This document shows positions 14,118 to 19,471 of a DNA stretch of 64,000 nucleotides, in pieces. The position numbers were made by a program, and so were the translations under genes. Origin of the DNA: Bacteroidia bacterium (GTDB lineage Bacteria; Bacteroidota; Bacteroidia; Chitinophagales; UBA2359). Each line of letters opens with the position of its first letter. Within the stretch, counting starts at the first letter, position 1. The notes beneath the pieces were generated by a model that worked only from the letters and a program-made list of their open reading frames with translations, did no database searches and was not told where the DNA came from. The DNA lies in contig JAUHXA010000004.1 in the NCBI GenBank assembly GCA_030427245.1, positions 124,001 through 188,000 of the forward strand. Reading direction: 5' to 3'.

Positions 14118-15218
14118 TCAGACAGCCGCCTTATTCATCACTTTTGTTTGATGTCGAATAGACTCATTGTGAACCGCATTGTATAAATCCTGCATAAACT
14201 GTTGGCTCAAACCCAACTTTTCACCTGCTTCCACACGACCACGAATCAGTTCATCCCATCTTGCAGGCTGCAAAATCGTGATGCCATTCTCTCGTTTATA
14301 ATCCCCAATTCGTTCTGCAATCCCCATTCGTTCAACCAAGATTGAAATGACTTCTTGGTCTTTTTCATCAATCAACTCTCTCAAATCATCCAACGTATGT
14401 TGCACCATTACATCATCCGTTGAAGTTTTTCGAATCACCAAAGAATTCACGATTTCGCCATATTTTTCGGGAACAACTTGCTGTTTGGCATCGCTCAATG
14501 CTTTAGCGGGATTAATATGTGACTCCAACATAATTCCATCAAAGTTCAAATCCATTGCCTTTTGAGATACCTCTTGCAGCAAATCTCTGCGACCACAAAT
14601 GTGGCTTGGATCACAGATCATAGGTAGTTCTGGAATCCGTCGCATCATTTCAATCGGAATTTCCCAAAGTGGTATATTTCGGTAACGAGTTTGGCTATGA
14701 GAAGAAAAGCCACGGTGAATCGCTGCCAATTTGGTGATACCAGAACCATTCAATCGTTCCAATGCGCCAATCCACAAAGCCAAATCTGGATTCACAGGAT
14801 TTTTGACCATTACAGGAATGTCCACATCTACTAAGGCATTCGCAATCTCTTGAACTGCAAAAGGATTGACCGTAGTTCGTGCGCCCAACCACAAAATGTC
14901 GACACCCATTCGGAGAGCTTCATAAACGTGTTTGACATTTGCCACCTCACAAGTCACAGGTAATCCCGTTTCCTTTGAAGCTTTTTTGAGCCACTTCAAA
15001 GCAGGACTTCCGATTCCTTCAAAACTATTTGGGCGAGTACGAGGTTTCCAAATACCTGCTCGCAAAAGATGTATTTTTTGTTTGTTCAACCTTAGGGCAG
15101 TCTCCAAAACCTGCTCCTCTGTTTCGGCACTACATGGGCCACTGATCAACAAAGGTTCTTTCCGACTCAATCCCAATCCCCAATCTTCTAAAGGGGTGAT
15201 GTTCAATTTAATTTGCAT
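14118..15218 (-). CDS. Bifunctional DAHP synthase / chorismate mutase
   Basis: 366 residues. Residues 1-265 are a DAHP synthase of the KDO8PS-like type I-beta group: GPCSAETEEQ, KPRTRPNSFEG, LGARTTVNPFA and the metal-site CDPSHICGRRD are visible. It condenses PEP with erythrose 4-phosphate. Residues about 275-366 are an AroQ-type chorismate mutase (LDDLRELIDEKDQEVISILVERM, given here only by its ends; then IGDYKRENG). This fusion is common in Bacteroidota, where the mutase can also serve as a regulatory module. It is the last gene of the aromatic operon (prephenate dehydratase, aminotransferase, prephenate dehydrogenase, this gene), 97 bp after tyrA, so the same attenuator probably governs it. 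Confidence 0.94.
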   Translation of the reverse strand: MQIKLNITPLEDWGLGLSRKEPLLISGPCSAETEEQVLETALRLNKQKIHLLRAGIWKPRTRPNSFEGIGSPALKWLKKASKETGLPVTCEVANVKHVYEALRMGVDILWLGARTTVNPFAVQEIANALVDVDIPVMVKNPVNPDLALWIGALERLNGSGITKLAAIHRGFSSHSQTRYRNIPLWEIPIEMMRRIPELPMICDPSHICGRRDLLQEVSQKAMDLNFDGIMLESHINPAKALSDAKQQVVPEKYGEIVNSLVIRKTSTDDVMVQHTLDDLRELIDEKDQEVISILVERMGIAERIGDYKRENGITILQPARWDELIRGRVEAGEKLGLSQQFMQDLYNAVHNESIRHQTKVMNKAAV

Positions 15219-15315: not shown

Positions 15316-16158
15316 TTAGTCTAAGATTTTCCGAATGGCATTTGCCGATTCCATCATCTTCGCCAATTCGTCAAATTCCCCTTGCTCGATGTGCCAACGC
15401 CAGAGCAATAGATTTTTGACATACGTATTGATAACTTCCATGATGTTGTCTGCATTTTGTTCGAATATTTGCGACCACATTTCGGGCGAACTCTTCGCCA
15501 ATCGCACCGTTGAAGCAAAACCACCACCTGCCATATTAAAAATATCTGCTTTGCTTTTCTCTTTCTCCAATACCGTATTTGCCAAGATAAAAGAGCTGAT
15601 ATGTGAGACGTGTGAGACATAAGCGGCATGAATATCATGATCAGCAGCATCCATTTCAATCACCTTCATTTTCAAACGACTATACATAAAACCAACCGTA
15701 TGTTTGGCTTCCGAACTGCTGTCATTCGCATTGCACAATATTGCCACTTTTCCGTCAAACATTCCTCGAATCGCTGCTTTCGGTCCCGAATATTCTGTAC
15801 CCGCCATTGGGTGTGAGGCAACATACTGTCTTCTATTCGGGTGGTTTTCAACGGCTTTCACCATTCCTTCTTTGGTCGACCCCATATCCGTCACTACCGC
15901 ACTTTCTTTAATACAATCCAATACAGTTGGTAAAAGTTTTATAATATAATTGACAGGAATTGCCAAAATGACCAAATCCGCCACTTCAACTGCTTCCTTC
16001 AATTCCATCGCCTCATCCACCAAACCCAATTCTAAGGCATCTTCTATATGTTTTGGGTTCTTGTCCACGCCAATCACTCGCTGAGTAAATCCTCTTTCTT
16101 TCAAGTCCATACCCAAGGAACCGCCTATCAATCCAAGTCCAATAATTGTTGTAATCAT
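15316..16158 (-). CDS. tyrA: Prephenate dehydrogenase
   Basis: 280 residues. The N-terminal Rossmann fold starts with TTIIGLGLIGGS (GxGxxG at 7-12), followed by the family motifs TDMGSTKEG and ASHPMAGTEYSGP (the catalytic-site HPMAG). The C-terminal helical dimerisation domain is present; no ACT domain is attached. It oxidatively decarboxylates prephenate to 4-hydroxyphenylpyruvate for tyrosine. The start codon overlaps the stop of the upstream aminotransferase gene (ATGA, 16155-16158), which indicates translational coupling. Length matches stand-alone TyrA enzymes. Confidence 0.94.
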   Translation of the reverse strand: MITTIIGLGLIGGSLGMDLKERGFTQRVIGVDKNPKHIEDALELGLVDEAMELKEAVEVADLVILAIPVNYIIKLLPTVLDCIKESAVVTDMGSTKEGMVKAVENHPNRRQYVASHPMAGTEYSGPKAAIRGMFDGKVAILCNANDSSSEAKHTVGFMYSRLKMKVIEMDAADHDIHAAYVSHVSHISSFILANTVLEKEKSKADIFNMAGGGFASTVRLAKSSPEMWSQIFEQNADNIMEVINTYVKNLLLWRWHIEQGEFDELAKMMESANAIRKILD

Positions 16159-17354
16159 CTGCTAAAAGAATTGCTAAATTGTGGAATGGTCTTATTGTTA
16201 AAAATCTGAATTCTATCTTTGGCTTCCTCCAACACCTCTAAGGAACTGCAAAGTGAAATCCGTACATAACGAGCTCCTGCCGTTCCAAAAATAAATCCTG
16301 GAGTCATAAACACATTTGCTTCATACAACAGCTCATCTATCAACTTCTCTACGGACTGCACTTGATTCGGCACTTTTGCCCATACAAACATTCCTACTTG
16401 ATGGGAAGAATACTTACAATCCAACAAGTCCAATATTTCACAAGCCTTCTTTTTGCGAAGCGCATATTCTTTATTTTGAAGGCTATGCCACTTTTGGGAA
16501 TTGCCCAAAGCTTCAATTGCAGCCTTTTGAAGTCCCAAAAACATTCCCGAATCCATATTGCTTTTCACCTTCAATATGGCTTGCAAATAATCGCTTGCTC
16601 CCAAAACCATTCCCACACGCCAACCCGCCATATTGTGGGATTTGCTTAAAGAATTAAGTTCTATTGCCACCTCTTTTGCCCCTTCTATTTGCAAGATACT
16701 TTTGGGAGCGTTGTTCAGCACCAAGCTATAAGGATTATCATTGACTATCAAAATCTTATGCTTGTGAGCGAAACTTACCAAACGCCCAAACAACGAATCA
16801 GAAGCATCTGCACCTGTTGGCATATTGGGGTAGTTCGTCCACATGATTTTGACCCTAGTTAAATCCATTCTCTCCAATGCTTCCCAATCTGGTTCCCAGT
16901 TATTTTTTTCTTGCAAATCGTAAGAAATGATGTTTGCATGCATCAATTTCCCCACCGAAGAATAGGTTAAATAACCAGGATTTGGCACCAACACACTATC
17001 ACCTGCATTGAGAAACGCCATCGAAATGTGCATGATTCCTTCCTTAGAACCCATCAAAGGCAATATTTCAGAATCCGCATCCAAATCTACTCCATAGACT
17101 CTTTCATACCAACTCGACATCGCTTTTCGGAGTTCAGGAATGCCTGTATAACCCTGATAACCATGAACATTTTCTTTGTGAGAGGTATTCACCAAGCCAG
17201 CAATTGTTTTTTTTGAAGGAGGTAAATCAGGGCTGCCAATACCAATATTGATGATAGGTTTGCCCTCTGCCTTCAATTGCCGAATCTCTCGCAGTTTTTT
17301 GGAGAAATAGTATTCCTCAACAGTGTCTAACCTATTTGCTGTCGAAATAATCAT
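16155..17354 (-). CDS. PLP-dependent class I/II aminotransferase, probably aromatic
   Basis: 399 residues, fold type I aminotransferase. Visible are the substrate-binding GIGSPDLPP (38-46), NPGYLTY, the NYPNMPTGA segment (canonical NYPxNPTG), the cofactor-binding DNPYS (206-210) and the Schiff-base lysine in NSLSKSHNMAGWRVG (Lys238). The family includes LL-diaminopimelate aminotransferases and Bacteroidota aromatic/aspartate aminotransferases. Its place between prephenate dehydratase and prephenate dehydrogenase argues that it transaminates phenylpyruvate and 4-hydroxyphenylpyruvate, or prephenate to arogenate; this is inference from context. A 167-bp gap with a small hairpin separates it from pheA, and it overlaps tyrA by 4 bp. 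Confidence 0.9.
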   Translation of the reverse strand: MIISTANRLDTVEEYYFSKKLREIRQLKAEGKPIINIGIGSPDLPPSKKTIAGLVNTSHKENVHGYQGYTGIPELRKAMSSWYERVYGVDLDADSEILPLMGSKEGIMHISMAFLNAGDSVLVPNPGYLTYSSVGKLMHANIISYDLQEKNNWEPDWEALERMDLTRVKIMWTNYPNMPTGADASDSLFGRLVSFAHKHKILIVNDNPYSLVLNNAPKSILQIEGAKEVAIELNSLSKSHNMAGWRVGMVLGASDYLQAILKVKSNMDSGMFLGLQKAAIEALGNSQKWHSLQNKEYALRKKKACEILDLLDCKYSSHQVGMFVWAKVPNQVQSVEKLIDELLYEANVFMTPGFIFGTAGARYVRISLCSSLEVLEEAKDRIQIFNNKTIPQFSNSFSR

Positions 17355-17521: not shown

Positions 17522-18364
17522 TCAAATCGTCCGATGTTTAATCCCACGATGATACTCTCCCAAAATCTGCAATTCATTGATATAGGGCTGAATCACCTCC
17601 AACGTTTTCCGGTATCCATCATAATCTTCAAACTCAATATCCAGATGAAAAAAGTATTCCCATGCTTTGCCCACTACAGGCAAAGATTGGATTTTGGTGA
17701 GGTTGATACCATGTTCGCTTAGAATAGTCAATGTCTTAGCCAATGACCCTACTTCGTGTGCCAAGTGAAAACAGAGAGAGGCTTTGGTAGGTGCTTTTGC
17801 AGGAGATTTGGTGAATTCTTTGTGCTGCAACACTAAAAAGCGGGTAAAATTTCGCTTGTTGGTTTCGATACCTTCTGCCACAATATTCAACTTGTAGTAA
17901 TCTGCCGCCAAACTACTTGCAATTGCCGCTCTTCCTCTGGGTCGTTTTTCGCTCAACTCCTTTGCACTCCAAGCAGTATCAATCGTTTCGACAGAACGTA
18001 AGTGATGATGTTTGTCCAAAAAACTTTGACACTGCAAAATCGCCATTGGGTGAGAATGGACCTCCTGAATGTCTTCTACGCTTTGTCCATCAATGCTCAA
18101 AAGGTGATGTTGAATCCGCAAATAAACTTCTCCAATTATGTTCATTTCAGAATTTCTAAGCATTGCATAGTTGGGTAAAATCGTTCCTGCAACGGTATTT
18201 TCGATGGCCATTACCCCATAGTAATCTGGGCGTTTTTGAAAAGAACGAAACAACTGCGGAAAAGTATGACACTCAACGGCATCTATTGCTTCACGCTCTC
18301 CAAAATACTTGAAGGCAGCTATCTGATGAAAACATCCTCTAATTCCTTGTATGGCTACTTGCAT
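17522..18364 (-). CDS. pheA: Prephenate dehydratase
   Basis: 280 residues, monofunctional prephenate dehydratase converting prephenate to phenylpyruvate. Catalytic-domain landmarks are IQGIRGCFHQIAA at the N-terminus, VMAIENTVAG (51-60), and the diagnostic TRF triad (174-176). A C-terminal ACT domain follows (about 195-275), but its Phe-binding motifs are weak: GSLAKTL in place of GALxxxL, and KIQSLP where ESRP is expected, so classical Phe feedback may be altered. It is the first structural gene of the aromatic operon. Between the leader-peptide stop and this start codon lies a strong intrinsic terminator, so expression should be set by attenuation. Confidence 0.93.
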   Translation of the reverse strand: MQVAIQGIRGCFHQIAAFKYFGEREAIDAVECHTFPQLFRSFQKRPDYYGVMAIENTVAGTILPNYAMLRNSEMNIIGEVYLRIQHHLLSIDGQSVEDIQEVHSHPMAILQCQSFLDKHHHLRSVETIDTAWSAKELSEKRPRGRAAIASSLAADYYKLNIVAEGIETNKRNFTRFLVLQHKEFTKSPAKAPTKASLCFHLAHEVGSLAKTLTILSEHGINLTKIQSLPVVGKAWEYFFHLDIEFEDYDGYRKTLEVIQPYINELQILGEYHRGIKHRTI

Positions 18365-18391: not shown

Positions 18392-18423
18392 AAAAAAAAA
18401 GCCCCGACTTTTTCAGTCGAGGC
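18392..18423 (-). terminator. Intrinsic terminator acting as attenuator upstream of pheA
   Basis: On the minus strand gcctcgact-gaaaa-agtcggggc forms a 9-bp stem (one T-G wobble), followed directly by nine Ts (18400-18392). It stands 28 nt ahead of the pheA ATG and 33 nt beyond the leader-peptide stop. The 5' arm can alternatively pair with agttgagg at 18469-18462 in the leader, which would prevent the terminator from forming. Confidence 0.9.
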
Positions 18424-18455
18424 GTATGTAAATGATTGTTTTGTATATAACCTTA

Positions 18456-18530
18456 CTATTTCCTCAACTTTTGGTCTGGAGTACAGAAATAAAAAAAATA
18501 AAAACTGTTGTTTGAAATAGTAAAATTCAT
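18456..18530 (-). CDS. Phe/Tyr leader peptide of the aromatic amino acid operon
   Basis: A 24-codon frame too short for ordinary gene finding. It begins with ATG preceded by gaaaggg, a Shine-Dalgarno-like stretch that is better than most in this window. It reads MNFTISNNS, then F-Y-F-F-Y-F (codons 10-15, TTT TAT TTT TTT TAT TTC), then CTPDQKLRK and TAG. Six aromatic codons in a row directly upstream of the pheA operon are what a transcription attenuator needs. The codons for K-L-R near the end overlap the antiterminator arm agttgagg (18469-18462). A ribosome that reaches the stop would cover that arm and let the terminator form; a ribosome stalled for Phe or Tyr would leave it free. Family knowledge: classical phe and trp attenuators work this way. 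The application here is inference. Confidence 0.8.
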   Translation of the reverse strand: MNFTISNNSFYFFYFCTPDQKLRK

Positions 18531-18551
18531 TTTCCCTTTCTTTTGATGCTG

Positions 18552-18583
18552 TAAAGCTAAAGGAGTTTTTTTTCTCCACCAAA
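18552..18583 (-). promoter_or_regulatory. Bacteroidota-type promoter for the aromatic operon leader
   Basis: TTTG at 18583-18580 and TAGCTTTA at 18559-18552 match the Bacteroidota -33 TTTG and -7 TAnnTTTG boxes, with one mismatch in the last base and a 20-nt gap. Transcription would start roughly 15-20 nt before the leader-peptide ATG. The spacer holds a ggag-a8-ctcc hairpin. Confidence 0.55.
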
Positions 18584-18802
18584 TATTTATTGAAGAAATC
18601 GCAAAAAAAGGCATTTTTTTTGTCAATTATGGAAGCATTTGCCTTTTTCATTGAAAAACTATCAATTGCTAGTGAAGTGATGTGCTAAGACTATTTATAT
18701 TTTAGTCGAACTTGCAGGTCAGAGTGTTGAAGGACTGTCAATGTTATGATTTAATAACGGTAAATAAATAATCTAAATTGGGAAACTATTCTATTGCTGT
18801 TC

Positions 18803-19471
18803 CTAACCCAACCAATAGAATATTGCAGGAAGAACAAACCATAGGACAATCTGCCCCAAAATCAACCCAATTCCGTTTTCACCTCCAAAAACTTCTGATA
18901 AAAATAGTTTTCCTTTAACTACCTTATTCAATACCAGTACATTTGCTCTAATTTCGATAAGAAAAGCCACTGCAAAACTGAGAATGTTCCAATAGGCAGC
19001 CTCGGTACTATATAATTGTTGATTCCACCAAGTTGCGACAAAACCCCAACTTCCTGCTCCGATCAAACCGACAAAAATTAGAGGTAGGCAGCCCATGTCT
19101 CGCCAAGCTGTATGTCCTTCATCGTTTTTGAAGAATAGGAATACAATTGCCAAGCCTACCATTAAACCAACCATTTCTATGACTGCTTGCTCCAAAAAAA
19201 AATTCCAAATAGAAAGATCGAGTGTAGTTTGATTGAAGGCTATCAATAATGGCGGTACAAAAGGCAAGGCAAAAGTATATTCACGTTTTGCAGTCGCTTC
19301 AAAAACAGCTAAATACATTGTTTGATGAATGAGTAAAACGACCCAGCCAAGCATGATAATCAAACCATCGGCTGGGTAATTTTCCCTCATTATTAAGACT
19401 GCCAAATAACCGAGATAGGGCAAAATAGCATAGTAAAAATAGCTTGTTTTGTAAGCGAAGTTTTTCATCAA
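18803..19471 (-). CDS. Polytopic membrane protein next to a vWA gene
   Basis: 222 residues with about six hydrophobic segments spread along the whole length (for example near 12-28, 34-50, 66-82, 98-115, 125-145 and 200-220). No family recognised and no catalytic motif visible. It begins 3 bp after the stop of the von Willebrand A gene on the same strand, so the two are almost surely co-transcribed. A membrane partner for the cytosolic vWA protein is a reasonable guess. Confidence 0.72.
   Translation of the reverse strand: MMKNFAYKTSYFYYAILPYLGYLAVLIMRENYPADGLIIMLGWVVLLIHQTMYLAVFEATAKREYTFALPFVPPLLIAFNQTTLDLSIWNFFLEQAVIEMVGLMVGLAIVFLFFKNDEGHTAWRDMGCLPLIFVGLIGAGSWGFVATWWNQQLYSTEAAYWNILSFAVAFLIEIRANVLVLNKVVKGKLFLSEVFGGENGIGLILGQIVLWFVLPAIFYWLG

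Follow-up and report, generated by a model that had tools for sequence, protein, structure and literature searches.

Ribosome-mediated transcription attenuation is a classical mechanism, familiar from the pheA, trp, and his operons of E. coli, where the pheA leader peptide, pheL, contains Phe codons and no Tyr codons. Some leaders of E. coli do combine codons for two or more amino acids, namely, the pheST leader pheM and the thr and ilv attenuators; however, these control other genes with other mixes, and a near-even, alternating run of Phe and Tyr codons is not among their features. A 2010 survey by Lopatovskaya and others (cited in PMC4833913) may list attenuators of Bacteroidetes.

In a view from 2010, leader-peptide attenuation was limited to Proteobacteria and Actinobacteria, with Firmicutes added (PMC2965389). 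The pheA attenuator (pheL), which is among the known attenuators of E. coli (PMC1183508), resembles the locus described here in its leader peptide with codons for the product, its antiterminator/terminator switch, and its position ahead of pheA; it differs in that E. coli pheA is separate from tyrA-aroF. Within the Bacteroidota, an RNA-seq study of Flavobacterium psychrophilum from 2021 reported "strong clues" that amino acid operons are preceded by leader-peptide attenuators, together with a 5' element of pheA that is conserved in Flavobacteriaceae and gives no Rfam hits (PMC9723704). It thus shares with our locus the phylum, the gene, and the naming of leader-peptide attenuation, and its main text gives no leader sequence, Tyr, pairing, spacing, or distribution past Flavobacteriaceae (PMC9723704). 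Our results are compatible with a reading of the F. psychrophilum element as this attenuator. Two further systems are partly alike. The proposed uORF attenuator uORFC-13-1 of Acholeplasma also involves Phe and a shikimate gene, aroF, but it belongs to another phylum, has at least one Phe only, and is unrelated in sequence (PMC8632094). The Salmonella mgtCBR leader RNA carries two leader-ORF attenuators in series, as do relatives of our locus (PMC3641672).

A Phe/Tyr leader ORF and an intrinsic terminator precede pheA

The locus lies in the window, i.e., the whole stretch of 64,000 nucleotides of a Bacteroidia bacterium that was analyzed. An initial annotation had read it as a complete Phe/Tyr attenuator in front of a pheA-aminotransferase-tyrA-DAHPS/CM operon. 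The features, in the order of transcription, are as follows.

18580-18583, minus strand: promoter -33 element TTTG, from a TTTG/TAnnTTTG scan
18552-18559, minus strand: promoter -7 element TAGCTTTA, in the arrangement TTTG-N20-TAGCTTTA
18456-18530, minus strand: leader peptide ORF MNFTISNNSFYFFYFCTPDQKLRK, 24 codons, ATG at 18530, stop TAG at 18458-18456, with homologous leaders in relatives
18486-18503, minus strand: six aromatic codons, F-Y-F-F-Y-F, codons 10 to 15, the putative stall codons
18462-18469, minus strand: antiterminator 5' strand AGTTGAGG, from pairing and the minimum free energy (MFE) fold
18415-18423, minus strand: terminator 5' arm GCCTCGACT, of which bases 18422-18415 are common to the antiterminator
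18401-18423, minus strand: intrinsic terminator hairpin GCCTCGACT-GAAAA-AGTCGGGGC, -16.6 kcal/mol, z -5.6 versus shuffles
18392-18400, minus strand: T9 tract of the terminator
17522-18364, minus strand: pheA, prephenate dehydratase with ACT domain (Pfam PF00800, 3e-54; PF01842)
16155-17354, minus strand: class I/II aminotransferase (Pfam PF00155, 5e-55)
15316-16158, minus strand: tyrA, prephenate dehydrogenase (Pfam PF02153 and PF20463; NCBIfam NF006307 over cut-off)
14118-15218, minus strand: DAHP synthase-chorismate mutase fusion (Pfam PF00793 and PF01817)

The Pfam matches bore out the gene names of the initial annotation, and the gene order after the attenuator is pheA, aminotransferase, tyrA, and DAHPS/CM. 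The products of this operon are exactly the amino acids encoded in the leader run, as in a ribosome-mediated attenuator.

Promoters were scanned with the TTTG/TAnnTTTG motif in place of sigma-70, and a sigma-70 scan of the window region gave no match, as expected for Bacteroidota. The annotated promoter was present base by base, with a 20-nt spacer and one mismatch to the Bacteroidota-type motif TTTG-N-TAnnTTTG. From its position, transcription would start at about 18547-18544, approximately 15 nt ahead of the 24-codon leader, and a purine-rich stretch of about 15 nt lies just 5' of the leader ATG. A longer in-frame ORF from 18614 was considered as the leader and was rejected because the predicted transcription start is downstream of its start codon. 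The 24-codon ORF does contain the six consecutive aromatic codons (FYFFYF) that had been described for it at positions 10 to 15. Separately, positions 18608-18645 (minus strand; AAAAAGGCA ... TGCCTTTTT) may form a weak, long-looped terminator for the upstream gene; this fold is no better than shuffles (z -1.2).

The terminator likewise corresponded to its description as a 9-bp stem with nine Ts; six of the nine pairs are G-C, and pheA starts approximately 28 nt 3' of the T-tract. This short distance would also suit a leader that acts mainly on pheA translation or via Rho and not through intrinsic termination, a reading made very improbable by the strength of the hairpin with its T9 and by terminators of this form at the corresponding position in relatives.

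Antiterminator and terminator are mutually exclusive

An 8-bp pairing with one wobble had been proposed between the leader and the terminator arm. This pairing was recovered between AGTTGAGG (18469-18462), which sits within the leader ORF tail, and CCTCGACT (18422-18415), with a duplex energy of -12.6 kcal/mol and z values of -4.1 and -3.8 in two computations. When the transcript was ended at the terminator loop and folded without constraint, the MFE fold contained exactly this 8-bp AGTTGAGG/CCTCGACT helix, and the full transcript folded as the terminator (-35.0 kcal/mol versus -28.6 kcal/mol with the antiterminator forced). The two structures are mutually exclusive in the window, as in an attenuator.

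For each unit (defined below), the sequence 3' of the last aromatic codon was paired with the 5' arm of its own terminator. Over 155 units, pairing with the own arm had a mean z of -3.1 versus shuffles and was the best of 50 shuffles in 59%; the helices are the best found in each case, a choice for which the shuffles control, and the z figures come from related sequences. The initial annotation had proposed that the pairing be sought in relatives, and it recurs there with changed sequences: besides AGTTGAGG/CCTCGACT in the window, we found AGTCGAG/CTCGACT (L006), AGTCGG/CCGACT (L005), GGAGGCGGGA/TCCCGCCTCC (L038), and CGAGAC/GTCTCG (L023). When the terminator arms of other genomes were offered instead, the cognate arm was among the best 5% in 61 of 155 units (at 0.6% for the window), and noncognate arms were often nearly equal, because the arms share a TCCCG core.

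Alternative folds of this kind would also be expected of a riboswitch, T-box, or protein-bound leader RNA in which the peptide is secondary. In the window region and six relatives, no Rfam family scored as high as its gathering cut-off, and the only matches listed at E<1 were three weak, unrelated ones; T-box and amino acid riboswitch models gave no match in the window region. Conservation, moreover, resides in the aromatic ORF and in how far it lies from the pairing segment rather than in any aptamer-like sequence, and such an RNA has a very slim chance of being the regulator here. The gammaproteobacterial Rfam model Phe_leader did not match either; the window unit, which shows no sequence similarity to the E. 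coli leader, would work alike without being a member of that family.

The antiterminator is positioned relative to the aromatic codons

Across the 155 units, the distance from the last aromatic codon to the start of the helix is 9.8 ± 4.0 nt, and in 137 of them it falls within 4 to 16 nt, versus 28% in shuffles. At 16 nt, the spacing in the window falls on the upper margin of this distribution. The antiterminator had been described as lying near the leader stop, which is so in the window (4 to 11 nt before the stop) but does not make the stop its anchor: when the stop codon was tried as the reference, the distribution was broad (spread of about 12 nt, versus a standard deviation of 4 nt from the aromatic codons), and the position of the helix relative to the stop tracks how long the ORF tail is (r = -0.93). 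Hence, it is the aromatic codons that serve as the reference across units. A ribosome whose A site holds an aromatic codon covers approximately nine bases beyond it, so that the start of the helix would lie at about the leading edge of a stalled ribosome. By this geometry, in the window and in the 155 units, the antiterminator would be free when the ribosome stalls and covered when it progresses. The spacing is as expected if the decisive event is a stall within the aromatic codons.

The unit is widespread in the class

We counted as a unit any ATG ORF of 10 to 50 codons with at least five Phe or Tyr within a stretch of eight residues and an intrinsic terminator downstream, and searched for such units in 139 pheA upstream regions from the family of the window, its order, and named genomes. 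At least one unit was found in 106 of the 139 regions; the same scan found none in 695 dinucleotide-preserving shuffles and none in the 139 reverse complements. The arrangement in the window is therefore not due to chance, given 106 of 139 loci versus 0 of 695 shuffles. With a terminator cut-off of four G-C pairs, many loci in family f25 escaped the scan; their hairpins are AT-rich but present. Of 86 single leaders, 51 have the promoter motif ahead of them, versus a rate of about 8% in shuffles.

The aromatic run, whose conservation had been named as a check, is thus retained in relatives, and in other families of the class, outside the order, a leader ORF was present in 38 of 40 genomes. Within the order, families f18, f19, and f21 had a leader in all 57 loci. 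Lack of the unit in relatives had been named as a refuting observation, and it holds only locally: in the family of the window (f1), 7 of 16 loci have a leader (that of L009 being doubtful), and 9 of 16 lack a leader ORF, in several cases where the operon has been rearranged; among these 9 are those with the closest PheA relatives, L003 and L004. The attenuator is absent from L003, L004, L007, L010, L012, L013, and other members of f1; in L010, a promoter-like motif lies immediately 5' of pheA, and in L003 and L004 the sequence ahead of pheA is coding-like. When the aminotransferase gene was next downstream, a leader was present in 62 of 73 loci, versus 7 of 18 otherwise, and in leaderless loci the operon was often broken up. 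In other classes of the phylum, a leader ORF was found in 4 of 42 genomes (L158, L177, L189, and L203), all four with the same, Bacteroidia-type PheA (AIQG..SFH). Since leaders outside the class occur only with this PheA, leader and operon seem to move as one, either through transfer or through shared ancestry.

An alternative is that the terminator in the window merely ends the upstream transcription unit and that the ORF is an AT-rich accident. A gene does lie upstream on the same strand (18803-19471), and the region is AT rich; however, the absence of such units from all 695 shuffles, the promoter between the upstream gene and the leader, and the conservation of cognate pairing and spacing leave this account barely credible.

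Proposed mechanism

Taken together, conservation, pairing, and spacing support the earlier reading in which ribosome stalling governs the choice between terminator and antiterminator, and the window very probably holds a ribosome-mediated transcription attenuator that responds to how far both tRNA-Phe and tRNA-Tyr are charged. With ample Phe and Tyr, a ribosome translating the leader would pass FYFFYF and occupy AGTTGAGG; CCTCGACT could then pair only with AGTCGGGG, the terminator would form, and transcription would stop approximately 28 nt ahead of pheA. With either charged tRNA in short supply, the ribosome would stall in the aromatic run with AGTTGAGG just past its leading edge, and the free AGTTGAGG would pair with CCTCGACT as it emerged, so that no terminator would form and the whole Phe/Tyr operon would be transcribed.

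The mixed character of the leader, as annotated for the window, is nearly universal: both amino acids are present in all of 126 leaders, with at least two Phe and at least two Tyr codons in 124. The totals are 625 Phe and 442 Tyr codons, the latter including 162 TAC. Switches between Phe and Tyr numbered 806 versus 689 ± 16.5 expected, a value reached by 0 of 1,000 permutations, a figure that overstates the evidence because the leader sequences are related. Either sensing of both amino acids along the whole run or avoidance of T runs would explain the alternation. A single amino acid might be sensed, with the other codons as passengers or as breakers of T runs on which RNA polymerase could slip. 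The excess of Phe over Tyr codons and the placing of TAT between TTT codons, which avoids long T runs, would agree with this, as would the alternation itself; we consider it unlikely nonetheless, given that every leader contains both amino acids, nearly always at least two of each and with TAC among the Tyr codons, and that both are made by the operon.

Tandem attenuators in relatives

The window has one unit only and is not a tandem attenuator of the mgtCBR type. Two complete units in series were found at at least 20 loci (28 with relaxed terminators): L028, L032, L033, L037, L043, L044, L048, L052, L070, L072, L076, L103, L118, L125, L131, L133, L140, L141, L147, and L016, in the last of which the leader of unit 1 is doubtful. 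Of these loci, L037 and L044 are in single-contig genomes, and L140 is in the isolate Odoribacter sp. Z80. The spacing from the aromatic run was 9.7 ± 3.9 nt in unit 1 and 10.2 ± 4.2 nt in unit 2, and the units pair with their own terminators with mean z values of -2.6 and -2.9, respectively (simple shuffles). Both units appear to share one promoter, since the motif precedes 18 of 19 first leaders and 1 of 20 second leaders, the latter being the shuffled rate.

In such a serial double, a single promoter would serve two different Phe/Tyr leaders, each of which has an antiterminator and a terminator of its own, and the double would act multiplicatively, as a steeper switch on one signal. We know of no description of serial attenuators with the same kind of signal codons, within a literature coverage that is incomplete. 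The mgtCBR units read different signals, ATP and proline, whereas both leaders of the Bacteroidota tandems are Phe/Tyr leaders (PMC3641672). Probably, then, the Phe/Tyr attenuator is class-wide in Bacteroidota and the serial double is the default in some families, most clearly in f18, where expression would need two successive stalls. The tandem loci permit a direct test of whether two serial attenuators sharpen the response to one signal.

Relation to known systems and other leaders in the genome

The mixed Phe/Tyr attenuator had been called hardly described in Bacteroidota. This is fair but does not amount to undescribed, given the leader-peptide clues and the pheA element in the F. psychrophilum report (PMC9723704). 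As far as could be checked, the new points are the reach of the attenuator across the class, its mixed run, its spacing rule, and the serial double attenuators in at least 20 relatives. If the proposed mechanism is correct, a phylum dominant in many soils and guts uses attenuation to control its Phe/Tyr pathway, and Rfam contains none of these elements. It is widely held that Bacteroidota rely little on Shine-Dalgarno sites, and the switch, if real, requires close coupling of ribosome and RNA polymerase; these loci would therefore be a natural reporter of transcription-translation coupling for the phylum.

In the same genome, no leader was found within 900 nt before the match at the trpE, ilvB, and aspartokinase loci, where the first operon gene may be another. 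Upstream of hisG (L245; contig C154 of genome G000), a His leader, MNFSNTHHHIHHCALHSIEAKGG, is followed by a 14-bp terminator and, judged by its sequence, is a putative second, classical attenuator of this genome.
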